Shown here piece after piece: positions 32,135 to 63,224 of a DNA stretch of 64,000 bases. A program made the translations under genes and the position numbers. The notes under the pieces are model-generated. The model searched no databases, had not been told where the DNA came from, and saw nothing but the letters and a program-made list of their open reading frames with translations. Source of the stretch: Liolophura sinensis (lineage: Eukaryota; Mollusca; Polyplacophora; Chitonida; Chitonidae); the NCBI RefSeq assembly GCF_032854445.1, contig NC_088295.1:12327385-12391384 (forward strand), given 5' to 3'. The first letter of the stretch is position 1, and every line of letters starts with the position of its first letter.

Positions 32135-34420
32135 TTTTGCGTTGGTCTGTGAGGCGATGCTTGCTTATATACTCTTCACGAGATGGACACTTGTCTGTGG
32201 GGCGATGTTTATCTATAAACTCATCACGAGGTGAGCATTTGTCTGTTGAGGCGATCTTAACCCAATTATTCTTTATGTGGTGGGTGCGCATCTGTGAGGC
32301 AGTGCTTACTTATATACTCTTCACGAGATGGACACTTGTCTGTGGGGCGATGTTTATCTATATACTCATCACGAGGTGAGCATTTGTCTGTGAGGCGATC
32401 TTAACCCAACTATTCTTTATGTGGTGGGTGCGCATCTGTGAGGCAGTGCTTACTTATATACTCTTCATGATATGGACAATTGTCTGTGAGGCGATGCTTA
32501 TCTATATACTCTTCATGAGGTGAGCACTAGTCTATGAGGCGATCTTAACCCATATTTTCTTCATGAGATGAGCACTTGTCTGTGAGGCGATGCTTAATTA
32601 TATGTTCTTCATGAGGTGGTCGCTTGTCTGTGAGGTAATGCTTGCTTATATACTCGTCATGAGGTGGATACTTACCTGTGAGGCGATGCTTATCTATATA
32701 CTCTTTATGAGGTGAGCACTTTTCTATGAGGCGATCTTCACCCATATATTCTTCATGAGGTGAGCGCTTGTCTGTGAGGTGATCTTAACCCAACTATTCT
32801 TTATGTGGTGGGTGCTCATCTGTAAGGCAGTGCTTATTTATATACTCTTCATGATATGGACAATTGTCTGTGAGGCGATGCTTATCTATATACTCTTCAT
32901 GAGGTGAGCACTAGTCTATGAGGCGATCTTAACCCATATTTTCTTCATGAGATGAGCACTTGTCTGTGAGGCGATGCTTACTTATATGTTCTTCATGAGG
33001 TGGTCGCTTGTCTGTGAGGTAATGCTTGCTTATATACTCGTCATGAGGTGGACATTTATCTGTGAGGCGATGCTTATCTATATACTCTTTATTAGGTGAG
33101 CACTTTTCTATGAGGCGATCTTCACCCATATATTCTTCATGAGGTGAGCACTTGTCTGTGAGGTGATCTTAACCCAACTATTCTTTATGTGGTGCTTACT
33201 TATATACTCTTCACGAGATGGACACTTGTCTGTGGGGCGATGTTTATCTATATACTCTTCACGAGGTGAGCATTTGTCTGTGAGGCGATCTTAACCCAAC
33301 TATTCTTTATGTGGAGGGTGCTCATCTGTGAGGCAATGCTTACTTATATACTCTTCATTATATGGACAATTGTCTGTGAGGCGATGCTTATCTATATACT
33401 CTTCATGAGGTGAGCACTAGTCTATGAGGCGATCTTAACCCATATTTTCTTCATGAGATGAGCACTTGTCTGTGAGGCGATGCTTACTTATATGTTCTTC
33501 ATGAGGTGGTCGCTTGTCTGTGAGGCAATGCTTGCTTATATACTCGTCATGAGGTGGACACTTATCTGTGAGGCGATGCTTATCTATATACTCTTTATGA
33601 GGTGAGCACTTTTCTATGAGGCGATCTTCACCCATATATTCTTCATGAGGTGAGCGCTTGTCTGTGAGGCGATGCTTATCTATATACTCTTCATGAGGTG
33701 AGCACTAGTCTATGAGGCGATCTTAACCCATATTTTCTTCATGAGGTGAGCGCTTGTCTGTGATGCGATGCTTATCTATATACTCTTCATGATGTGGACA
33801 CTTGTCCGTCAGTCGATGCTTATTTATATATTCTTCATGTGAGCGCTTGTCTGTGAGGCGATGCTTATCTATATACTCTTCTTGAGGTGAGCACTTGTCT
33901 GTGAGTCGATGATAACCCATATATTCTTCATGAGGTGAGCGCTTGTCTGTGAGGCGATGCTTATCTATATACTCTTCATGAGGTGAGCACTAGTCTATGA
34001 GGCGATCTTAACCCATATTTTCTTCATGAGGTGAGCGCTTGTCTGTGATGCGATGCTTATCTATATACTCTTCATGATGTGGACACTTGTCCGTCAGTCG
34101 ATGCTTATTTATATATTCTTCATGTGAGCGCTTGTCTGTGAGGCGATGCTTATCTATATACTCTTCTTGAGGTGAGCACTTGTCTGTGAGTCGATGATAA
34201 CCCATATATTCTTCATGAGGTGGGCGCTTGTCTGTGAGTCGATGTTAACCCATACACTCTTCGTGAGGTGGGCGCTTGTCTGTGAGTCGATGTTAACCCA
34301 TACACTCTTCGTGAGGTGGGCACTTGTCTGTGAAGCGATGCTTATCTATATACTCTTCTCGAGGTGAGCACTTGTCTGTGAGTCGATGATATCCTCTTCT
34401 TGGGTTTGACACTTGTCTGT
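32135..34420 (-). repeat. 48-bp minisatellite, about 47 copies, with higher-order structure
   Basis: The unit reads, on the plus strand, CTTGTCTGTGAGGCGATGCT then TATCTATATACTCTTCATGA then GGTGAGCA. Variants of 45 bp and some with TTAACCCA substitutions occur. On the minus strand units read as a 16-residue motif (KHRLTDKCPPHEEYID), interrupted by stops every four to five units. Larger blocks are duplicated: 33723-33920 and 34008-34205 are essentially identical at an offset of 285 bp, and related blocks begin at 32545, 32929 and 33435. Confidence 0.92.
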
Positions 34421-47074: not shown

Positions 47075-47186
47075 CTCATGATGATACAAACACCCATGAT
47101 GACTAATACCACCACGATGAGGAAAATGACAGTGCCAATCACACTGCCGACGATGGTTGCCTGATTCTGACCCAAGGTTTCAGCAG
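47075..47186 (-). CDS. Ephrin-receptor-like/EGF membrane protein, transmembrane exon
   Basis: The 112-nt exon begins with AAETLGQNQATIVGS and passes into an uninterrupted hydrophobic stretch of about 23 residues (VIGTVIFLIVVVLVIMGVCI), ending IIM before a basic cluster in the next exon. This predicts one membrane-spanning helix of type I orientation: extracellular cysteine domains upstream, basic residues downstream. A G-x3-G pattern (GSVIG) near the outer leaflet could favour helix pairing. Acceptor is TTCGTTCAG and donor ATGAG/GTAAGC. This exon changes the phase from 1 to 2, unlike the symmetrical domain exons before it. Confidence 0.88.
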
Positions 47187-47454
47187 CTGAACGAATAACA
47201 GAGAGAAAACATCATACATGATGTATATGCACTAGTTACAATGATCCAGTCTTCTAGGTCAACATCATCTGCAATTTCTCAATTTATTCATATCTATAAA
47301 TACATGAAAGCTGTCATAGGTTAAAAAACCTCATTGGAGATAAGTAAACAGGAAGTGGCCTGAACAGAGAGAGAGTCCAGGCAGACGGCTTGGCCAGCCA
47401 GGGCCTTCAGTGTTATTTTATATTACTGACAATCATCCCTTCCTAATTACTCAC
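47187..47454 (-). other. Intron between transmembrane and EGF exons
   Basis: 268 bp, phase 1, with donor AGAG/GTGAGT. No repeat or other feature seen. Confidence 0.75.
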
Positions 47455-47568
47455 CTCTGCGGGTTTGGCACCTTTTGCCTGTATACACTGTGGTACAAAC
47501 ACAGTGAGCGTTTATACCGCTCTGACAGGTTCCTTGATTCTGGCAGTAATTTGGTATCTTACAAATAT
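47455..47568 (-). CDS. Ephrin-receptor-like/EGF membrane protein, EGF-like domain exon
   Basis: A 114-nt symmetrical 1-1 exon encodes one EGF-like domain: DICKIPNYCQNQGTC, then HCVC and TGKRC. The six cysteines follow the C-x5-C-x5-C-x7-C-x-C-x8-C pattern and CQNQGTC is typical of the family. It lacks the D-x-D/E consensus of calcium-binding EGF modules. It sits between the last cysteine-repeat exon and the membrane helix, so it is the membrane-proximal extracellular module. Acceptor is CCTTTGCAG and donor AGAG/GTGAGT. Confidence 0.92.
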
Positions 47569-47766
47569 CTGCAAAGGTGAGGAATTTACATTATAACAAC
47601 ATTAAAGCATGATTCCTGACCAAACAAGCTCAAATTGTGAAACATTTATCTTTGGCTTTGTCAAATTGATCCCAGCACATTTATTTCTTTGATTCTTTCA
47701 TATTGATTCTTTTCATGTTATAAGTTGTAGAATTTCAATTTCATCCACGACAGAAGTCTGTGCATA

Positions 47767-48380
47767 AAGTCCCACATCACATCCCATGATCAATGGCTGC
47801 TTGTCACCAATGTATCTGGAGACGATGCCCAATCATCACCAAGTTTTTCATAATACAGCAGTCCCAAGTCACACCTGGTAATAAAAGGCTGTTTGTTACC
47901 AATGTGTTAAGAGGGGATGCCTAGTCAACAAGCTTTTCATAATACAGGAGTCCCAAGCCACACCTGGTAATAACAGGCTGCTTGTCATCAATGTGTTCAG
48001 AGAGGATGCCTAGTCAACAAGCTTTTCATAATACAGGAGTCCCAAGCCACACCTGGTAATAACGGGCTGCTTGTCATCAATGTGTTCAGAGAGGATGCCT
48101 AGTCAACAAGCTTTTCATAATACAGGAGTCCCAAGCCACACCTGGTAATAATGGGCTGCTTGTCATCAATGTGTTCAGAGAAGATGCCTAGTCAACAAGC
48201 TTTTCATAATACAGGAGTCCCAAGCCACACCTGGTAATAACAGGCTGCTTGTCATCAATGTGTTCAGAGAAGATGCCTAGTCAACAAGCTTTTCATAATA
48301 CAGGAGTCCCAAGCCACACCTGGTAATAATGGGCTGCTTGTCATCAATGTGTTCAGAGAAGATGCCTAGTCAACAAGTTT
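47767..48380. repeat. 89-bp minisatellite, about seven copies
   Basis: The unit includes CAACAAGCTTTTCATAATAC, AGGAGTCCCAAGCCACACCT, GGTAATAACAGGCTGCTTGT and CATCAATGTGTTCAGAGA. Spacing is exactly 89 bp between successive GGTAATAA anchors (for example 47966, 48055 and 48144). The first two copies on the left are decayed and the last four are nearly identical. It does not match any exon in the window. Confidence 0.92.
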
Positions 48381-48680
48381 TTCCTTTAAATAACCTTTGG
48401 TGAAATGCTTTTGAATGCCCATGTTACAGTAAATGGAAACAAAAATAGTTTGCCTACCATTTTTCACAGAACAAATGATAAGACAGGATCATTTTTATCT
48501 TCAGCGATAAAGAGTTCAGACTAAAAAATCCCCTCCATTATTAAAACATATGCCATCTTAAAACTGAACCAGAAGCTTACCTATACATTCAGTGCCCCTG
48601 TACCATTTGATGTGGAACCAGAAGCTTACCTATACATCCAGTGGCCCCTGTACCATTTGTTGTGGAACGAGAAGCTTACC

Positions 48681-48962
48681 AGGGGGCCTCCGTGGCTCAG
48701 TTGGTTAGTGCGCTAGCGCAGCGTAATGTCCCAGGAGCCTCTCACCAATGCGGTCGCTGTGAGTTCAAGTCCAGCTAATGCTGGCTTCCTCTCCGGCCGT
48801 ACGTGAGAAGGTCTGTCAGCAACCTGCGGATGGTCATGGGTTTTCCCGGGCTGTGCCCAGTTTCCTCCCACCATAATGCTGGTCGCCGTTGTATGAGTGA
48901 AATATTCTTGAGTACGGCGTAAAACACCAATCAAATAAATAAATAAATAAATAAATAAATAA
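48681..48962 (+). mobile_element. tRNA-derived SINE, full length, inside the 50-bp array
   Basis: The head GCCTCCGTGGCTCAGTTGGT contains a perfect A box (TGGCTCAGTTGG) and is followed by a B-box-like GTGAGTTCAAGTCC. The body has CGTGAGAAGGTCTGTCAGCA and CACCATAATGCTGGTCGCCG. The 3' end GTACGGCGTAAAACACCAAT passes into (AAAT)n. It interrupts an array unit at GAAGCTTACC. AAGCTTACC repeats after the tail, consistent with a target-site duplication of about 9-11 bp. No protein is encoded; such elements depend on LINE enzymes. Confidence 0.93.
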
Positions 48963-49022
48963 GAAGCTTACCTATACATCCAGTGGTCCCTGTACCATTT
49001 GTTGTCGAACCAGAAGCTTACC

Positions 49023-49275
49023 AGGGGGCCTCCGTGGCTCAGTTGGTTAGCACGCTAGCGCAGCATAATGACCCAGGAGCCTTTCACCAATGCGGTCGCT
49101 GTGAGTTCAAGTCCAGCTAATGCTGGCTTCCTTTCCGGCCTTACGTGGGAAGGTCTGTCAGCAACCTGCGGATGGTCATGGCTCTGCCCAGTTTCCTCCC
49201 ACCATAATGCTGGCCGCCGTCGTATGAGTGAAATATTCTTGAGTACGGCGTAAAACACCAATCAAATAAATAAAT
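49023..49275 (+). mobile_element. tRNA-derived SINE, second copy at the identical array position
   Basis: Nearly the same element as at 48681-48962, with the same head, boxes and tail. It interrupts a 50-bp unit at exactly the same base (GAAGCTTACC then AGGGGGCC) and is followed by GAAGTTTGCC. It differs by a short internal deletion in the GTTTTCCCGGG stretch and a shorter AAAT tail. The shared insertion point shows that a SINE-bearing block of the array was duplicated, not that there were two insertions. Confidence 0.93.
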
Positions 49276-51076
49276 AAGAAGTTTGCCTATACATCCAGTG
49301 GTCCTTGTACCATTTGTTGTGGAACCAGAAGCTTACCTATACATCCAGTGGCTTCTGTAGCATTTGTTGTGGAACCAGAAGCTTACCTATACATCCAGTG
49401 GTCCCTGTACCATTTGTTGTGGAACCAGACGCTTACCTATACATTCAGTGGCCCTTGCACCATTTGTTGTGGAGCCAGAAGCTTACCTATACATCCAGTG
49501 GCCCCTGTACCTTTTGTTGTGGAACCAGAAGCTTACCTATACATCCAGTGGCCCCTGTGCCATTTGTTGTGGAACCAGAAGCTTACCTATACATTCAGCG
49601 CCCCTGTACCACCTGTTGTGGAACCAGAAACTTACCTATACATTCAGTGCCCCTGTACCATTTGTTGTGGAACCAGAAGCTTACCTATATATCCAGTGGT
49701 CCCTGTACCATTTGTTGTGGAACCAGAAGCTTACCTATATATCCAGTGGTCCCTGTACCATTTGTTGTGGAACCAGAAGCTTACCTATACATCCAGTGGC
49801 CCCTGTACCATTTGTTGTGGAACCAGAAGCTTACCTATACATTCAGTGCCCCTGTACCATTTGTTGTGGAACCAGAAGCTTACCTATACATCCAGTGGTC
49901 CCTCTGCCATTTGATGTGGAACCAGAAGCTTACCTATACATCCAGTGGTCCCTGTACCATTTGTTGTGGAACCAGAAGCTTACCTATACATCTAGTGGTC
50001 CCTGTACCATTTGTTGTGGAACCAGAGGCTTACCTATACATTCAGTGCCCCTGTACCATTTGATGTGGAACCAGAAGCTTACCTATACATCCAGTGGTCC
50101 TTGTACCATTTGTTGTGGAACCAGAAGCTTACCTATACATTCAGTGGCTCCTGTACCATTTGCTGTGGAACCAGAAGCTTCCCTATACATTCAGTGGCCC
50201 CTATGCCATTTGTTGAGGAACCAGAAGCTTACCTATACATCCAGTGGCCCCTGTACCATTTGTTGTGGAACCAGAAGCTTACCTATACATTCAATGGCCC
50301 CTGTGCCATTTGTTGTGGAACCAGAAGCTTACCTATACATTCAGTGCCCCTGTACCATTTTTTGTGGAACCAGAAGCTTACCTATACATTCAGTGGCCCC
50401 TGTACCATTTGATGTGGAACCAGAAGCTTACCTATACATTCAGTGCCCCTGTACCATTTTTTGTCGAACCAGAAGCTTCCCTATACATTCAGTGGCCCCT
50501 GTACCATTTGATGTGGAACCAGAAGCTTACCTATACATTCAGTGCCCCTGTACCATTTGATGTGGAACCAGAAGCTTACCTATACATTCAGTGCCCCTGT
50601 ACCATCTGTTGTGGAACCAGAAGCTTACCTATACATCTAGTGGTCCCTGTACCACCTGTTGTGGAACCAGAAGCTTACCTATACATTCAGTGCCCCTGTA
50701 CCATTTGATGTGGAACCAGAAGCTTACCTATACATCCAGTGGTCCCTCTGCCATTTGTTGTGGAACCAGAAGCTTACCTATACATTCAGTGGCTCCTGTA
50801 CCATTTGCTGTGGAACCAGAAGCTTCCCTATACATTCAGTGGCCCCTGTACCATTTGTTGAGGAACCAGAAGCTTACCTATACATCCAGTGGCCCCTGTA
50901 CCATTTGTTGTGGAACCAGAAGCTTACCTATACATTCAGTGCCCCTGTACCATTTCTTGTGGAACCAGAAGCTTACCTATACATTCAGTGGCCCTTGCAC
51001 CATTTCTTGTGGAACCAGAAGCTTACCTATACATCCAGTGGCTTCTGTACCATTTGTTGTGGAACCTGAAGCTTAC

Positions 51077-51232
51077 CTATACATTCAGTGGCCCCTATAC
51101 CATTTGTCGTGGAACCAGCAGGACAATCTACACAACTCTCCTGCCATTTAATATTCTGGTATGAACCCTCAGGACATGGGACACATGTTTTCTTTTCCAC
51201 ATTATGGTACGTCCCAGGACTGGTACAGTTGG
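51077..51232 (-). CDS. Ephrin-receptor-like/EGF membrane protein, cysteine-repeat exon 4 of those visible
   Basis: A 156-nt symmetrical 1-1 exon encodes one ephrin-receptor-like (GCC2/GCC3, PF07699-type) module: ANCTSPGTYHNVEKKTCVPC, then PEGSYQNIKWQESCVDCPAG, then STTNGIGATECI. The C-x-x-C-P-x-G-x-Y-Q pattern and the closing C-x-x-C-P-x-G-x-T...C are diagnostic of the repeats found in SCUBE and SVEP1 proteins and in ephrin receptors. Acceptor is TTTTTAG and donor ATAG/GTAAGC. The last 42 bases are the founder of the 50-bp minisatellite filling the next intron. Reading through the donor meets a stop after about one repeat unit. Confidence 0.93.
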
Positions 51233-54200
51233 CTAAAAAGCAAACACAAAATGGAATTCTCAACTTCTTTTAGATGGAATATCCTTTGTCAGTACATGTA
51301 TACAATACCATACAAATAAAACAATAAGAAAGCATTCAGAGGAGACCGACAGCTTGCCTGATTGAGCAATATCTGCTCTAGCTATTTTACAGCTGAAAGC
51401 TGCGACATATACACAGCCGAATTTCCACAACAACACTTATGAAATACTATTAACTGATTTGAAAAACTGTACAGAGATACATGTAGTAAACTCTGTACAC
51501 TGTAATGCCAGCGTTCACATACGTACATGATTCTATTTGGAATGCAGACAATTACATGTGCTGGTAGTTGTCATCGCATATAGGTATGAATTTTGAATCC
51601 CTCACAGAACAGAATGATATCTATTGTGAAGCAATCTGAGGGAAAGAATAGTAAATAAATATAAAATCTTACATAACACAGAAAATGTACCATGTAACAC
51701 AGTTTAAAACTATGCCTTACCAGTCCATATATTGTCAGTGCAGATGAAAACGCCTTGACAAAGATCAAAATTCAAGGTCTGAAAACTCAGAAGTCTGGCC
51801 AGAGATGTCAGTGTCCTAAATCTGAACTTGAATGTTGTTGACTATGGGTTCAAATTAATACGGCTGTATATTTCCTTCTGAGTAGCTAGAATCCATCTCG
51901 AAGATGACATCGATTTGATATGAATCCCTAGGTTATTTAGGCAAGCTAGACTTGGGTAGGCCATCTTTTACATCACCCACTAAGCCGTACCGGGAGGGTG
52001 GTGAATGGGCTAGGGCAGTAAATCTATTGTTTTTGGTGGATTTAAAGTTATTATTACGTTTCTCAGAAGCCCTCCTGGGTAACATAATGTTCAAACAGGT
52101 CGTAATCTTTATCATTTGGGTCAGTAGCTAAATCTTGACACTTATCCTGTAAGCACACTTACACTTAAGTTTACATGATATGGAAGATGTATGCTACATT
52201 TCATTAAAATAGGTTTAATACTTTAGGTAGAGTTGCATAGACAAAATCTGATTACAAGGAAAGTTTTGGAGGAGATGCATCAACAAAATCGTGTGTACAG
52301 ACAAACAGATAGAAGGAAAGACAAGTTGATTCCAGTTTGCCCCCTGCCCCCAACTTCACTGAGGGTAGTATAAATACTTAATGTCTAAATTATGAACTGA
52401 CTGGGGCATGTCACACAGTCTTACATATGACACAATCACTGCTGGAATGAGAGGCTGTAGTCTGGGTTATGAACTGACTGGGGCATGTCACACAGCCTTA
52501 CCTATGTCACAATCACTGCTGGAATGAGAGGCTGTAGTCTGGGTTATGAACTGACTGGGGCATGTCACACAGCCTTACCTATGTCAAAATCACTCCTGGA
52601 CTGAGAGGCTGTAGTCTGGGTTATGAACTGACTGGGGCATGTCACACAGTCTTACCTATGTCACAATCACCCCTGGACTGAGAGGCTGTAGTCTGGGTTA
52701 TGAACTTACTGGGGCATGTCACACAGCCTTACATATGTCACAATCATTCTTGGACTGAGAGGCTGTAGTCTGGGTTATGAACTGACTGGGGCATGTCACA
52801 CAGCCTTACATATGTCACAATCACTGCTGAACTGAGAGGCTGTAGTCTGGGTTATGAACTTACTGGGGCATGTCACACAGCCTTACCTATGTCACAATCA
52901 CTGCTGGACTGAGAGGCTGTAGTCTGGGTTATGAACTGACTGGGGCATGTCACACAGCCTTACCTATGTCAAAATCACTCCTGGACTGAGAGGCTGTAGT
53001 CTGGGTTATGAACTGACTGGGGCATGTCACACAGCCTTACCTAAGTCACAATCACTGCTGGACTGAGAGGCTGTAGTCTGGGTTATGAACTGACTGGGGC
53101 ATGTCACACAGCCTTACCTATGTCACAATCACTGCTGGACTGAGAGGCTGTAGTCTGGGTTATGAACTGACTGGGGCATGTCACACAGCCTTACCTATGT
53201 CACAATCATTCCTGGACTGAGAGGCTGTAGTCTGGGTTATGAACTGACTGGGGCATGTCACACAGCCTTACCTCTGCCACAATCACTGCTGGACTGAGAG
53301 GCTGTAGTCTGGGTTATGAATTGACTGGGGCATGTCACACAGCCTTATCTATGTCACAATCACTGCTGGACTGAGAGGCTGTAGTCTGGGTTAACTGACT
53401 GGGGCATGTCACACAGCCTGACCTATGTCACAATCACTGCTGAACTAAGAGGCTGTAGTCTGGGTTATGAACTGACTAAAGCATGTCACACAGCCTTACT
53501 TATGTCACAATCACTCCTGGACTGAGAGGCTGTAGTCTGGGTTATGAACTGACTGGGCTATGTCACACAGCCTTACCTATGTCACAATCACTCCTGAACT
53601 GAGAGGCTGTAGTCTGGGTTATGAACTGACTGGGGCATGTCACACAGCCTTACCTATGTCACAATCACTGCTGAACTAAGAGGCTGTAGTCTGGGTTATG
53701 AACTGACTGGGGCATGTCACACAGCCTTACATATGTCACAATCACTCCTGGACTGAGAGACTGTAGTCTGGGTTATGAACTGACTGGGGCATGTCACACA
53801 GCCTTACCTATGTCACAATCACTGCTGAACTGAGAGGCTGTAGTCTGGGTTATGAACTGACTGGGGCATGTCACACAGCCTTACCTATGTCACAATCACT
53901 CCTGGACTGAGAGGCTGTAGTCTGGGTTATGAACTGACTGGGGCATGTCACACAGCCTTACATATGTCACAATCACTGCTGAACTGAAAGGCTGTAGTCT
54001 GGGTTATGAACTGACTGGGGCATGTCACACAGCCTTACCTATGTCACAATCACTCCTGGACTGAGAGGCTGTAGTCTGGGTTATGAACTGACTGGGGCAT
54101 GTCACACAGCTTTACATATGTCACAATCACTCCTGGACTGAGAGGCTGTAGTCTGGGTTATGAACTGACTGAGGCATGTCACACAGCCTTACCTATGTCA

Positions 54201-57200
54201 CAATCACTGCTAGACTGAGAGGCTGTAGTCTGGGTTATGAACTTACTGGGGCATGTCACACAGCCTTACCTATGTCACAATCACTGCTGGACTGAGAGGC
54301 TGTAGTCTGGGTTATGAACTGACTAAAGCATGTCACACAGCCTTACCTATGTCACAATCACTGCTGAACTGAGAGGCTGTAGTCTGGGTTATGAAATGAC
54401 TGGGGCATGTCACACAGCCTTACCTATGTCACAATCACTCCTGGACTGAGAGGCTGTAGTCTGGGTTATAAACTGACTGGGGCCTTTCACACAGCCTTAC
54501 CTATGTCACAATCACTCCTGGACTGAGAGGCTGTAGTCTGGGTTATGAACTGACTGGGGCATGTCACACAGCCTTACCTATGTCACAATCACTCCTGGAC
54601 TGAGAGGCTGTACTCTAGGTTATGAACTGACTGGGGCATGTCACACAGCCTTACCTATGTCACAATCATTCCTGCACTGAGAGGCTGTAGTCTGGGTTAT
54701 GAACTGACTGGGGCATGTCACACAGCCTTACCTATGTCACAATCACTCCTGGACTGAGAGGCTGTAGTCTGGGTTATGAACTGACTGGGGCATGTCACAC
54801 AGCCTTACCTATGTCACAATCACTCCTGGACTGAGAGGCTGTAGTCTGGGTTATGAACTTACTGGGGCATGTCACACAGCCTTACCTATGTCACAATCAT
54901 TCTTGGACTAAGAGGCTGTAGTCTGGGTTGTGAACTTACTGGGGCAGGTCACACAGCCTTACCTATGTCACAATCACTGCTGAACTGAGAGGCTGTAGTC
55001 TGGGTTATGAACTTACTGGGGCATGTCACACAGCCTTACCTATGTCACAATCACTGCTGGACTGAGAGGCTGTAGTCTGGGTTATGAACTGACTGGGGCA
55101 TGTCACACAGCCTTACCTATGTCACAATCACTGCTGGACTGAGAGGCTGTAGTCTGGGTTATGAACTGACTGGGGCATGTCACACAGCCTTACCTATGTC
55201 AAAATCACTCCTGGACTGAGAGGCTGTAGTCTGGGTTATGAACTGACTGGGGCATGTCACACAGCCTTACCTATGTCACAATCACTGCTGGACTGAGAGG
55301 CTGTAGTCTGGGTTATGAACTGACTGGGGCATGTCACACAGCCTTACCTATGTCACAATCACTCCTGGACTGAGAGGCTGTAGTCTGGGTTATGAACTGA
55401 CTGGGGCATGTCACACAGCCTTACCTATGTCACAATCATTCCTGGACTGAGAGGCTGTAGTCTGGGTTATGAACTGACTGGGGCATGTCACACAGCCTTA
55501 CCTATGCCACAATCACTGCTGGACTGAGAGGCTGTAGTCTGGGTTATGAACTGACTGGGGCATGTCACACAGCCTTACCTATGTCACAATCACTGCTGGA
55601 CTGAGAGGCTGTAGTCTGGGTTATAAACTGACTGGGGCATGTCACACAGCCTTACCTATGTCACAATCACTGCTGGACTGACAGGCTGTAGTCTGGGTTA
55701 TAAACTGACTGGGGCATGTCACACAGCCTTACCTATGTCACAATCACTCCTGGACTGAGAGGCTGTAGTCTGGGTTATGAACTGACTGGGGCATGTCACA
55801 CAGCCTTACCTATGTCACAATCACTGCTGGACTGAGAGGCTGTAGTCTGGGTTATGAACTGACTGGGGCATGTCACACAGCCTTACATATGTCACAATCA
55901 CTCCTGGACTGAGAGGCTGTAGTCTGTGTTATGAACCGACTGGGGCATGTCACACAGCTTTACATATGTCACAATCACTCCTGGACTGAGAGGCTGTAGT
56001 CTGGGTTATGAACTGACTGGGGCATGTCAGACAGCCTTACCTATGTCACAATCACTGCTGGACTGAGAGGCTGTAGTCTGGGTTATGAACTGACTGGGGC
56101 ATGTCACACAACCTATGTCACAATCACTGCTGGACTGAGAGGCTGTAGTCTGGGTTATGAACTGACTGGGGCATGTCACACAGCCTTACCTATGTCACGA
56201 TCACTCCTGGACTGATAGGCTGTAGTCTGGGTTATGAACTGACTGGGGCGTGTCACACAGCCTTACCTATGTCACGATCACTCCTGGACTGAGAGGCTGT
56301 AGTCTGGGTTATGAACTTACTGGGGCATGTCACACAGCCTTACATATGTCACAATCACTGCTGGACTGAGAGGCTGTAGTCTGGGTTATGAACTGACTGG
56401 GGCATGTCACACAGCCTTACCTATGTCACAATCACTGCTGGACTGAGTGGCTGTAGTCTGGGTTATGAACTGACTGGGGCCTGTCACACAGCCTTACATA
56501 TGTCACAATCACTCCTGGACTGAGAGGTTGTAGTCTGGGTTATGAACTGACTGGGGCATGTCACACAGCCTTACCTATGTCACAATCACTGCTGGACTGA
56601 GAGGCTGTAGTCTGGGTTATGAACTGACTGGGGCATGTCACACAGCCTTACCTATGCCACAATCATTCCTGGACTGAGAGGCTGTAGTCTGGGTTATGAA
56701 CTGACTGGGGCATGTCACACAGCCTTACCTATGTCACAATCACTGCTGAACTGAGAGGCTGTAGTCTGGGTTATGAACTGACTAAAGCATGTCACACAGC
56801 CTTACTTATGTCACAATCACTCCTGGACTGAGAGGCTGTAGTCTGGGTTATGAACTGACTGGGGCATGTCACACAGCCTTACCTATGTCACAATCACTCC
56901 TGGACTGAGAGGCTGTAGTCTGGGTTATGAACTGACTGGGGCATGTCACACAGCCTTACCTATGTCACAATCACTGCTGGACTAAGAGGCTGTAGTCTGG
57001 GTTATGAACTGACTGGGGCATGTCACACAGCCTTACATATGTCACAATCACTCCTGGACTGAGAGGCTGTTGTCTGGGTTATGAACTGACTGGGGCATGT
57101 CACACAGCCTTACCTATGTCACAATCACTGCTGGACTAAGAGGCTGTAGTCTGGGTTATGAACTGACTGGGGCATGTCACACAGCCTTACATATGTCACA

Positions 57201-60200
57201 ATCACTGCTGGACTGAGAGGCTGTAGTCTGGGTTATGAACTGATTGGGGCATGTCACACAGCCTTACCTATGTCACAATCACTGCTGGACTGAGAGGCTG
57301 TATTCTGGGTTATGAACTGACTGGGGCATGTCACAGCCTTACCTATGTCACAATCACTGCTGGACTGAGAGGCTGTAGTCTGGGTTATGAACTGACTGGG
57401 GCATGTCACACAGCCTTACCTATGTCACAATCACTCCTGGACTGACAGGCTGTAGTCTGGGTTATAAACTGACTGGGGCATGTCACACAGCCTTACCTAT
57501 GTCACAATCACTCCTGGACTGAGAGGCTGTAGTCTGGGTTATGAACTGACTGGGGCATGTCACACAGCCTTACCTATGTCACAATCACTGCTGGACTGAG
57601 AGGCTGTAGTTTGGGTTAGGAATTGACTGGGGCATGTCACACAGCCTTACCTATGTCACAATCACTCCTGGACTGAGAGGCTGTAGTCTGGGTTATGAAC
57701 TGACTGGGGCATGTCACACAGCCTTACCTATGTCACAATCACTCCTGGACTGAGAGGCTGTACTCTGGGTTATGAACTGACTGGGGCATGTCACACAGCC
57801 TTACCTATGTCACAATCACTCCTGGACTGAGAGGCTGTAGTCTGGGTTATGAACTGACTGGGCCATGTCACACAGCCTTACCTATGTCACAATCACTCCT
57901 GGATTGAGAGGCTGTAGTCTGGGTTATGAACTGACTGGGCCATGTCACACAGCCTTACATATGTCACCATCACTGCTGGAACAAGAGGCTGTTGTCTGGG
58001 TTATGAACTGACTGGGCCATGTCACACAGCCTTACATATGTCACAATCACTCCTGGATTGAGAGGCTGTAGTCTGGGTTATGAACTGACTGGGCCATGTC
58101 ACACAGGCTTACATATGTCACAATCACTGCTGGAACGAGAGGCTGTAGTCTGGGTTATGAACTGACTGGGGCATGTCACACAGCCTTACCTATGTCACAA
58201 TCACTGCTGGATTGAGAGGCTGTAGTCTGGGTTATGAACGGACTGGGGCCTTTCACATAGCCTTACCTATGTCACAATCACTGCCGGACTGAGAGGCTGT
58301 AGTCTGGGTTATGAACTGACTGGGGCATGTCACACAGCCTTACATATGTCACAATCACTCCTGGACTGAGAGGCTGTTGTCTGGGTTATGAACTGACTGG
58401 GGCATGTCACACAGCCTTACATATGTCACAATCACTCCTGGACTGAGAGGCTGTTGTCTGGGTTATGAACTGACTGGGGCATGTCACACAGCCTGACCTA
58501 TGTCACAATCACTGCTGGACTGAGAGGCTGTAGTCTGGGTTATGGACTGACTGGGGCATGTCACACAGCCTTACCTATGTCACAATCACTGCTGGACTGA
58601 GAGGCTGTAGTCTGGGTTATGAACTGACTGGGGCATGTCACACAGCCTTACCTATGTCACAATCACTCCTGGACTCAGAGGCTGTATTCTGGGTTATGAA
58701 CTGACTGGGGCATGTCACAGCCTTACCTATGTCACAATCACTCCTGGACTGAGAGGCTGTAGTCTGGGTTATGAACTGACTGGGGCATGTCACACAGCCT
58801 TACCTATGTCACAATCACTCCTGGACTGACAGGCTGTAGTCTGGGTTATAAACTGACTGGGGCATGTCACACAGCCTTACCTATGTCAAAATCACTCCTG
58901 GACTGAGAGGCTGTAGTCTGGGTTATGAACTGACTGGGGCATGTCACACAGCCTTACCTATGTCACAATCACTCCTGGACTGAGAGGCTGTAGTTTGGGT
59001 TAGGAATTGACTGGGGCATGTCACACAGCCTTACCTATGTCACAATCACTCCTGGACTGAGAGGCTGTAGTCTGGGTTATGAACTGACTGGGGCATGTCA
59101 CACAGCCTTACCTATGTCACAATCACTCCTGGACTGAGAGGCTGCACTCTGGGTTATGAACTGACTGGGGCATGTCACACAGCCTTACCTATGTCACAAT
59201 CACTCCTGGACTGAGAGGCTGTAGTCTGGGTTATGAACTGACTGGGCCATGTCACACAGCCTTACCTATGTCACAATCACTCCTGGATTGAGAGGCTGTA
59301 GTCTGGGTTATGAACTGACTGGGCCATGTCACACAGCCTTACATATGTCACCATCACTGCTGGAACGAGAGGCTGTAGTCTGGGTTATGAACTGACTGGG
59401 CCATGTCAGACAGCCTTACATATGTCACAATCACTCCTGGATTGAGGGGCTGTAGTCTGGGTTATGAACTGACTGGGCCATGTCACACAGGCTTACATAT
59501 GTCACAATCACTGCTGGAACGAGAGGCTGTAGTCTGGGTTATGAACTGACTGGGGCATGTCACACAGCCTTACCTATGTCACAATCACTGCTGGATTGAG
59601 AGGCTGTAGTCTGGGTTATGAACTGACTGGGGCCTTTCACATAGCCTTACCTATGTCACAATCACTGCTGAACTGAGAGGCTGTAGTCTGGGTTATGAAC
59701 TGACTGGGACATGTCACACAGCCTTACATATGTCACAATCACTCCTGGACTGAGAGGCTGTAGTCTGTGTTATGAATTGACTGGGGCATGTCACACAGCT
59801 TTACATATGTCACAATCACTCCTGGACTGAGAGGCTGTAGTCTGGGTTATGAACTTACTGGGGCATGTCAGACAGCCTTACCTATGTCACAATCACTGCT
59901 GGACTGAGAGGCTGTAGTCTGGGTTATGAACTGACTGGGGCATGTCACACAGCCTATGTCACAATCACTGCTGGACTGAGAGGCTGTAGTCTGGGTTATG
60001 AACTGACTTGGGCATGTCACACAGCCTTACCTATGTCACGATCACTCCTGGACTGATAGGCTGTAGTCTGGGTTATGAACTGACTGGGGCGTGTCACACA
60101 GCCTTACCTATGTCATGATCACTCCTGGACTGAGAGGCTGTAGCCTGGGTTATGAACTTACTGGGGCATGTCACACAGCCTTACATATGTCACAATCACT

Positions 60201-61563
60201 GCTGGAATGAGAGGCTGTAGTCTGGGTTATGAACTGACTGGGGCATGTCACACAGCCTTACCTATGTCACAATCACTGCTGGACTGAGTGGCTGTAGTCT
60301 GGGTTATGAACTGACTGGGGCCTGTCACACAGCCTTACATATGTCACAATCACTCCTGGACTGAGAGGTTGTAGTCTGGGTTATGAACTGACTGGGGCAT
60401 GTCACACAGCCTTACCTATGTCACAATCACTGCTGGACTGAGAGGCTGTAGTCTGGGTTATGAACTGACTGGGGCATGTCACACAGCCTTACCTATGCCA
60501 CAATCATTCCTGGACAGAGAGGCTGTAGTCTGGGTTATGAACTGACTGGGGCATGTCACACAGCCTTACCTATGTCACAATCACTGCTGAACTGAGAGGC
60601 TGTAGTCTGGGTTATGAACTGACTAAAGCATGTCACACAGCCTTACTTATGTCAATCACTCCTGGACTGAGAGGCTGTAGTCTGGGTTATGAACTGACTG
60701 GGGCATGTCACACAGCCTTACCTATGTCACAATCACTCCTGGACTGAGAGGCTGTAGTCTGGGTTATGAACTGACTGGGGCATGTCACACAGCCTTACCT
60801 ATGTCACAATCACTCCTGGACTGAGAGGCTGTAGTGTGTGTTATGAACTGACTGGGGCATGTCACACAGCCTTACATATGTCACAATCACTCCTGGACTG
60901 AGAGGCTGTAGTCTGGGTTATGAACTTACTGGGGCATGTCAGACAGCCTTACCTATGTCACAATCACTGCCGGACTGAGAGGCTGTAGTCTGGGTTATGA
61001 ACTGACTGGGGCATGTCACACAGCCTATGTCACAATCACTGCTGGACTGAGAGGCTGTAGTCTGGGTTATGAACTGACTGGGGCATGTCACACAGCCTTA
61101 CCTATGTCACGATCACTCCTGGACTGATAGGCTGTAGTCTGGGTTATGAACTGACTGGGGCGTGTCACACAGCCTTACCTATGTCACGATCACTCCTGGA
61201 CTGAGAGGCTGTAGTCTGGGTTATGAACTTACTGGGGCATGTCACACAGCCTTACATATGTCACAATCACTGCTGGACTGAGTGGCTGTAGTCTGGGTTA
61301 TGAACTGACTGGGGACTGTCACACAGCCTTACATATGTCACAATCACTCCTGGACTGAGAGGCTGTAGTCTGGGTTATGAACTGACTGGGGCATGTCACA
61401 CAGCCTTACCTATGTCACAATCACTGCTGGACTGAGAGGCTGTAGTCTGGGTTATGAACTGACTGGGGCATGTCACACAGCCTTACCTATGCCACAATCA
61501 TTCCTGGACTGAGAGGCTGTAGTCTGGGTTATGAACTGACTGGGGCATGTCACACAGCCTTAC
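51233..61563 (-). other. 10.3-kb intron dominated by the 77-bp donor-junction array
   Basis: Phase 1, with donor ATAG/GTAAGG at 61563 and acceptor TTTTTAG at 51233. About 9.2 kb is the 77-bp array. The remaining 51233-52390 is AT-rich unique sequence plus one dispersed-repeat copy (52195-52375). No additional exon with cysteine-repeat spacing was found between the array and the acceptor. Confidence 0.85.
52195..52375 (+). repeat. Dispersed repeat, copy 2
   Basis: It contains TTCATTAAAATAGGT, GGAGATGCATCAACAAAATC, AGTTGATTCCAGTTTGCCCC and a final GAGGGTAGTATAAATA, in the same order and orientation as the copy at 44918-45055. It abuts the left edge of the 77-bp array. Confidence 0.6.
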
Positions 61564-61609
61564 CTATGTCACAATCACTGCTGAACTGAGAGGCTGTAGT
61601 CTGGGTTAT
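52390..61609 (-). repeat. 77-bp splice-donor minisatellite, about 120 copies
   Basis: On the minus strand each unit reads ATAACCCAGACTACAGCCTC, TCAGTCCAGCAGTGATTGTG, ACATAG/GTAAGG, then CTGTGTGACATGCCCCAGTC and AGTTC. The rightmost unit is the real 3' end of the exon at 61564-61731: 46 exon bases (61564-61609) plus 31 intron bases. Almost all units keep GT at the donor. A common variant has ACATAT/GTAAGG, and a few lose the consensus. Length is nearly constant, with occasional 71-75-bp units. Shared variant strings show larger duplicated blocks, such as about 57250-58630 repeated at about 58635-60010. Confidence 0.97.
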
Positions 61610-61731
61610 CCACTCTATTGGACATCTGACGCATTCAGCCTGTGGCATTCCATCTTCCCTGTAACTGCCCCTCTCACATGGAGTACAAGTTTTCGAAGAG
61701 TCTTCAAATTTGTTACCTGCAGGACATTTCT
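61564..61731 (-). CDS. Ephrin-receptor-like/EGF membrane protein, cysteine-repeat exon 3 of those visible
   Basis: A 168-nt symmetrical 1-1 exon encodes one ephrin-receptor-like module: EKCPAGNKFEDSSKTCTPCE, then RGSYREDGMPQAECVRCPIE, ending in FSSDCDI. Cysteine spacing matches the neighbouring repeats, although the usual CP-x-G after the C-x-x-C is CERG here and the second CP-x-G is CPIE. Acceptor is TGTTGAAG, with a weak pyrimidine tract, and donor ATAG/GTAAGG. The last 46 bases founded the 77-bp array filling the next intron. Reading past the donor meets TGA after four codons. Confidence 0.92.
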
Positions 61732-62231: not shown

Positions 62232-62390
62232 CAACACACTCAGCATGTGACTTTACTCCCTGCTTGATTGTGGTTTGAGTTTGGGGACAGATCAAACACT
62301 TATCCTGCCACTTCTCAGGCTGGTACATCCCCAAAGGACAGAGCTGACAGGTGTTGGTTTGTGTTCTGTATTGGCCAGGGTGACAGGCAG
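62232..62390 (-). CDS. Ephrin-receptor-like/EGF membrane protein, cysteine-repeat exon 2 of those visible
   Basis: A 159-nt symmetrical 1-1 exon encodes one ephrin-receptor-like module: ACHPGQYRTQTNTCQLCPLG, then MYQPEKWQDKCLICPQTQTT and HAECV. It shows the full C-x-PG-x-Y ... C-x-x-CP-x-G-x-Y-Q ... C-x-x-CP ... C signature. Acceptor is TTCGTAG and donor GTTG/GTAAGC. The frame is intact and contiguous in phase with both neighbours (split codons ACT upstream and GAG downstream). The AAGCTT right after the donor occurs at the next repeat exon's donor too. Confidence 0.93.
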
Positions 62391-63065: not shown

Positions 63066-63224
63066 TCTGACTGCAGTCATCCTGTTGTTTAGATCCCACC
63101 CCCAGAGTGGTGGTATTTTCAGGGCAGGCCTCACAGGTAACGGTCACCCCACCACTACTGTAGTATCCACGGGGACAAAGAGAGCAGGAGCCATCTGATA
63201 TAGCCTCACCAGGGGAGCAGAGTA
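63066..63224 (-). CDS. Ephrin-receptor-like/EGF membrane protein, cysteine-repeat exon 1 of those visible
   Basis: A 159-nt symmetrical 1-1 exon encodes one ephrin-receptor-like module: LCSPGEAISDGSCSLCPRGY, then YSSGGVTVTCEACPENTTTL and DDCSQ. Acceptor is CCACTTTCAG and donor CAGA/GTAAGG. The exon starts with a split codon, so at least one more coding exon lies 5', beyond 63225. I found no further module in 63225-64000. The protein therefore has at least four tandem modules ahead of the EGF and membrane segments. Confidence 0.88.

Follow-up and report, generated by a model that had tools for sequence, protein, structure and literature searches.

Which of two nearly equal 5' splice sites (donors) wins is a classic question of splicing, and a gene of the chiton Liolophura sinensis raises it with about 120 of them. 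In a 64,000-nucleotide stretch of contig NC_088295.1 (C1:12327385-12391384, hereafter the window), an exon encoding one Ephrin_rec_like module is followed by a 9.2-kb tandem array whose units repeat the end of that exon together with its donor. Here, we ask what this array (array 1) is, how the exon could be spliced in its presence and whether the decoy donors bear signs of function. We conclude that array 1 is probably a minisatellite spanning an exon-intron junction, of the kind called "mirages" in amphioxus, which would be neutral and tolerated since no donor but the first completes an exon that the splicing machinery can define.

Anatomy of the array

The host gene lies on the minus strand and extends beyond the end of the window. 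Tandem Repeats Finder (TRF) reports positions 52390-61609 as a repeat of period 77 with 120.1 copies and 94% matches, and a unit-by-unit parse of the sense (minus) strand yielded 120 units, the authentic junction counted in: 113 units of 77 bp, three of 75 bp, three of 72 bp and one of 74 bp, with a mean identity to the consensus of 0.967 and a lowest value of 0.909. Each unit consists of 46 bases of the exon end (61564-61609) and the first 31 intron bases, in the same sense as the gene; the first unit is the authentic junction of exon 61564-61731, and the further units run into the intron. Reading through the authentic donor (61562-61563) adds GKAV and then meets TGA. A preliminary description of the locus had claimed about 120 tandem 77-bp copies of this composition behind this exon and a stop four codons past the true donor, and on all these points it was right. 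Its claim of about 120 near-identical AG/GTAAGG donors (the slash marks the exon-intron boundary) holds for the array, but the donor count is a little too high: 117 of the 120 units retain GT and 84 retain AG/GTAAG, and 27 units have T for G at -1 with GT intact, which makes a weaker donor.

The exon is 168 bp long, a multiple of three, and therefore skipping it keeps the frame; donor k of the array would make an exon of 168+77k bases in which the stop is met at once. Identity between units is nearly flat across the array (0.947 at lag 1 and 0.939 at lag 80), which fits homogenisation, that is, concerted evolution. The array was seen in one haplotype, and its exact copy number is not secure because the HiFi reads of the published chiton assembly, sequenced at 14x, have a mean length of 8,347 bp in the available text of that report (PMC11068029), shorter than the array.

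A probable large case of a known kind of repeat

In amphioxus, the available portions of two reports (PMC3087553, PMC3902484) describe mirages as minisatellites at 5' and 3' exon-intron boundaries that leave splicing undisturbed, regular splicing being reported for Adh3 and globins; AG/GT is present in many, though not all, copies, and concerted evolution acts within clusters. The hosts named there are Adh3, troponin C and the globins BflGb6 and BflGb9, and the repeats of PGBD5 are similar. As far as these texts go, array 1 shares with the mirages a unit that lies across the exon-intron boundary, next to the authentic one and running into the intron, the retention of AG/GT in many but not all units, and concerted evolution. 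The mirages, however, belong to a non-mollusc host and, in the same texts, are described with 150-160-bp units numbering 6 and 3 in two haplotypes of BflGb6, with 60-bp units (2 or 7) and 108-bp units (3 or 6) in PGBD5, and with units of 10-72 bp in Adh3, whereas array 1 has about 120 units over 9.2 kb. In human, Turri, Cuin and Porter reportedly described in 1995, to go by their title, a minisatellite that gives multiple donors in the interferon-induced gene IFI6 (6-16), and its unit is said to be 12 bp. Furthermore, in human segmental duplications, variable internal tandem repeats situated at exon-intron boundaries change the structure of introns (PMC2812944, in the portion available); these are on average 30-bp units repeated four times in recent primate paralogues, in contrast to the very long array inside one chiton intron.

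The kind of repeat is thus known, and the chiton array looks like a very large case of it. The preliminary description knew of no described case of a donor junction expanded to this size; the size is without an equal in the sources as far as available, but the kind had already been reported in amphioxus. Literature on molluscs and chitons gave no junction-repeat case in the titles or abstract openings listed, a coverage that does not take in the introns of Conus genes (PMC3862624). As far as the literature was searched, the host and the size are new, as are the occurrence of three such arrays within a single gene and that of others elsewhere in the genome.

Other arrays in the host gene

We tested 20 Ephrin_rec_like exons of the host gene (C1 12378471 to 12412009) with 25-base junction probes, allowing at most six mismatches. 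Tandem recurrence was found at three of the 20 donors (116, 39 and 32 further places) and at none of the 20 acceptors, and two other donors had one isolated match each. The three donor-spanning arrays have units of 77, 50 (array 2, Table 1) and 18 bp. The third, with the donor GG/GTATGT, begins outside the window at exon C1:12409858-12410019, after which a long degenerate array follows. It is also present at the equivalent exon in two more tandem copies of the gene, where the first units are alike; length and intervening sequence differ among the three gene copies. This 18-bp array thus appears to predate, or to have travelled with, the gene duplications and to have changed since. Across C1:12.41-12.63 Mb, PF07699 exons occur in three blocks that closely resemble one another, spaced at about 90 kb, and the region looks tandemly duplicated.

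Further arrays of the host gene, with units of 36, 51, 45 and 43 bp and one of 89 bp in the window, span no junction as far as found. The 51-bp array (L023, C1:12394853-12397194), with about 46 copies, takes up the greater part of one intron and ends 12 bp short of the acceptor, and its unit contains GTGAGT. The 89-bp array (window 47795-48383; 6.6 copies, 94%) lies in the intron that precedes the EGF exon, off the junction, with about 224 bp between it and the acceptor.

Junction arrays elsewhere in the genome

Junction-spanning arrays were surveyed at 52 loci around exons of PF07699 (20), PF00057 (16) and PF00084 (16). Five of these loci belong to the host gene, and among the other 47 some overlap or are near-identical copies. 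A donor-spanning array at the matched exon itself was found at one of the 47 (L057, 53-bp unit), and inspection and exon search of neighbouring exons gave donor arrays at L019 (35 bp) and L052 (39 bp). Acceptors are spanned at two LDL-receptor-type (low-density lipoprotein) exons, L033 (55 bp) and L041 (32 bp), which rules out the donor-only rule that the host-gene probes had first suggested. Two candidates were rejected: at L016 the array starts within the intron, past the donor, and the acceptor flagged at L019 was judged not to be a true one.

A placement simulation (118 exons, 39 arrays, 1500 runs) gave chance expectations of 1.24 donor and 1.23 acceptor overlaps for the survey, in which 3 and 2 were seen; in total, 2.5 junction overlaps were expected and 5 seen, and at least 5 arose in about 9% of runs. 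For the host gene, the expectation was 0.27 donor and 0.28 acceptor overlaps against 3 and 0 seen, and three donors were reached in 1 of the 1500 runs, an excess that counts for less because the gene was ascertained by its array.

Genome-wide, the donor word AGGTRAGT occurring three times with 12-42 bases between had 1790 matches. The same pattern built from control words had 929 (the reversed word), 1360 (TGGATRAG), 376 (its reverse), 1113 (ATGAGTGR) and 1265 (its reverse), and the single donor word is about as common as its reverse (50,973 vs 47,894). Among the matches listed in the first 6.95 Mb of C1, there were 18 donor-word arrays, compared with 6 of the reversed word, 10 of TGGATRAG (two of which are donor-word arrays again) and 7 of ATGAGTGR. 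Donor-word arrays are therefore in about two-fold excess and not an exclusive pattern; the matches listed look crowded near the start of C1, and these counts carry no firm genome-wide extrapolation.

The 5' flanks of all 18 C1 donor-word arrays were taken, and the 5' edge was reached in 16 (all except L058 and L062). Clear protein support for an exon ending at the first donor was obtained for five of the 16: ankyrin (E 2.1e-9), a core-2 branching enzyme (E 1.4e-6), an SNF2 helicase (Pfam 9e-6), an iron-hydrogenase-like protein (E 1.8e-12) and 2-oxoglutarate dehydrogenase (OGDH; PDB 8.9e-20, with a Pfam E of 0.021 that is below the cut-off). The four PDB sequences closest to the helicase exon, each named "helicase-like protein" (2.6e-18), we take to be Mot1, which would make this SNF2 helicase BTAF1-like. 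Support was weak for two more, HEAT (7.8e-4) and alpha-L-fucosidase (5.4e-4), both below the curated cut-off. The remaining nine had none: in a Pfam run, L061, L064, L067, L070 and L075 gave no protein support, L075 with 54 open codons to the donor and no Pfam match, and L060, L068, L069 and L071, which have no open frame longer than 24 codons to the first donor, were left out of Pfam. The reading of every donor-word array as a junction array was rejected in view of these nine edges and of the control words, which are found in arrays as well. At C1:4179598-4193414, the donor arrays L065 and L066 stand about 12 kb apart on one strand; their exons, of which the HEAT exon is weakly supported, may share one Mot1/BTAF1-like gene, which could then be another gene, besides the host gene, that has several donor arrays.

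Elsewhere in the genome, then, arrays lie across the donors of unrelated, conserved genes, with a coding frame that stays open as far as the first donor. The unit lengths of 15 junction arrays are 77, 50, 53, 35, 31, 46, 38, 40, 52, 55, 32, 18, 39, 48 and 33 bp; four (18, 39, 48 and 33) are divisible by three, about the share expected without coding constraint.

Conservation of the decoy donors and alternative explanations

If the decoys were important, their donor window (nine columns) should diverge less than the remainder of the unit. Array 1 does not show this: mean divergence is 0.051 in the donor window, 0.036 in the exon part and 0.026 in the intron part, and equal or greater divergence is found in 12 of the 77 nine-column windows, with GT alone at 0.021. 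In array 2, the donor window diverges by 0.018 against an average of 0.052, a value that is not extreme since 39 of the 50 windows equal or exceed it; 33 of the 37 units retain GT. Selection on the decoy donors is not consistently indicated.

The array might regulate splicing or RNA decay, with the choice of a donor, or a failure to choose, tuning exon skipping or the amount of non-productive RNA. The intact AG/GTAAG of most units, the early stop, which would render extended isoforms non-productive, and the 1995 title on IFI6, which implies that repeated donors are usable, speak for such a role; however, array 1 shows no better conservation in its donor columns than elsewhere in the unit, 27 of the 120 copies carry the weakening change at -1, and amphioxus mirages splice normally according to the reports as far as available, and we consider regulation unlikely. 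A sink for the U1 small nuclear ribonucleoprotein (snRNP), or a U1-dependent suppressor of early polyadenylation in a long intron, could draw on the near-universal GT, in sense orientation within 9.2 kb, but the U1-pairing window is likewise not better conserved in array 1 and is unremarkable in array 2, and the acceptor-spanning arrays would be left unexplained by a U1 sink; this possibility is very unlikely. The proposals of the preliminary description that the array is a U1 sink, a suppressor of polyadenylation or a decay switch thus find no support in either array.

Even less credible is recursive splicing, in which each AG/GT would be a ratchet point and the array would be removed stepwise. 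AG precedes 10 of 13 array donors but 5 of 17 donors without arrays, a share biased by the fact that seven of the 13 (L059, L063, L065, L066, L072, L073 and L074) were found with an AG-containing pattern, and the upstream pyrimidine fraction is higher at array donors (0.56, n=13) than at other donors (0.44, n=17). Yet the 20 true acceptors of the host gene reach 0.75, so that array donors fall short of a polypyrimidine tract before each AG/GT, and the array 1 unit, by eye, has no clear tract before its AG. Finally, the assembly could have inflated the copy number or misplaced the array, for which the reported read length, below that of the array, is an argument. Against such an artefact, the unit starts with the exon's own sequence in place, the units differ from one another, at least 118 matches to the exon end plus donor were obtained, all those listed lying at the array 1 locus, and arrays of the same kind well below read length were found elsewhere in the genome. 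An artefact is as improbable as the U1 sink; array 1 itself is confirmed as real, its copy number being uncertain.

Proposed origin and tolerance of the junction-spanning array

The neutral junction-spanning minisatellite that we favour would have begun as a short tandem duplication across the 5' splice site of the exon, which unequal exchange or slippage could then have amplified and homogenised to about 120 copies. Such a duplication would spare the exon and its first donor and place the extra copies in the intron, and because they lie there the array would be tolerated. The intronic copies, judged by eye, seem to have no good acceptor of their own; the first donor alone would close an exon with a real acceptor and the normal length of 168 bp, and exon definition is therefore predicted to favour it. 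Since the exon length is a multiple of three, a lapse now and then might do no more than remove a single module without a frame change. Among the ideas of the preliminary description, this preference by exon definition is the most plausible.

Several points weigh against this explanation. Use of the first donor is a prediction from exon architecture; the donor window of array 2 is somewhat better kept than average; triple donor words exceed all control words (1790 vs 376-1360) despite near-equal single words; and donor-spanning arrays look commoner than chance, both in the gene (3 vs 0.27) and in the survey (3 vs 1.24). A bias towards donors, mutational or selective, may therefore exist. One could go further and suppose, although this is rather doubtful, that in the chiton genome minisatellites arise and persist with a preference for 5' splice sites, in what may be hundreds of genes, and that the spliceosome of this animal would routinely ignore tens to about a hundred near-identical donors close behind the right one by a strict first-donor or exon-definition rule.

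Features of the window

The positions of the two arrays in the window and of the exons around them are collected in Table 1. At its 3' end, after the Ephrin_rec_like exons, the host gene has an EGF exon and a probable transmembrane exon. The two short interspersed element (SINE)-like sequences inside array 2 are similar to each other, have AAATAA tails and are flanked by pieces of the array 2 unit, which suggests insertion into the array. Additionally, a 48-bp array at 32145-34388, reported in two main TRF rows (21 and 25 copies), has donor-like words on both strands of its unit, GAGGTGAGC on the plus and TATAGGTAAGC on the minus strand.

Table 1. Exons, arrays and insertions in the window, numbered from its first base
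Feature	Position	Strand	Basis and remarks
Ephrin_rec_like exon, 168 bp, one module	61564..61731	-	PF07699 E 1e-8; boundaries looked for in phase 1; last 46 bp form the exon part of the array 1 unit
Array 1, 120 units of ~77 bp across the donor	52390..61609	-	TRF, unit parse
Authentic 5' splice site GT (ATAG/GTAAGG)	61562..61563	-	Sequence
Next Ephrin_rec_like exon downstream, 156 bp, source of array 2	51077..51232	-	PF07699 E 8.2e-13
Array 2, 37 units of 49-50 bp, each with ~40 exon and 10 intron bases, across the donor of exon 51077-51232	49277..51118	-	
Array 2, detached distal piece past the inserted SINE-like elements	48566..48680	-	
Two putative SINE-like insertions, array 2 piece between them	48681..49276 (limits approximate)	+	Read from sequence; no database match
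Upstream Ephrin_rec_like exon, donor without tandem repeat	62232..62390	-	
Upstream Ephrin_rec_like exon, donor without tandem repeat	63066..63224	-	
EGF-like exon	47452..47571	-	EGF E 2.5e-4; boundaries by eye
Probable transmembrane exon	47085..47188	-	Boundaries by eye

Conclusion

To conclude, the size and prevalence of the chiton arrays are unusual, and array 1, one of several in the genome, is better regarded as an experiment of nature in splicing than as a novel device. Production of the protein depends on the first donor in a row of about 120 near-identical ones, and a stop follows that donor closely; this makes the locus a strong natural test of exon definition, and the genome also holds shorter versions with varied spacing and copy number. 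The arrays also illustrate one route of intron growth and a site at which new introns might arise. If minisatellites are indeed seeded and kept preferentially at donors and the first donor is strictly chosen, they would amount to a large set of natural donor-competition experiments and to a source of intron growth, possibly of new introns, in this chiton.

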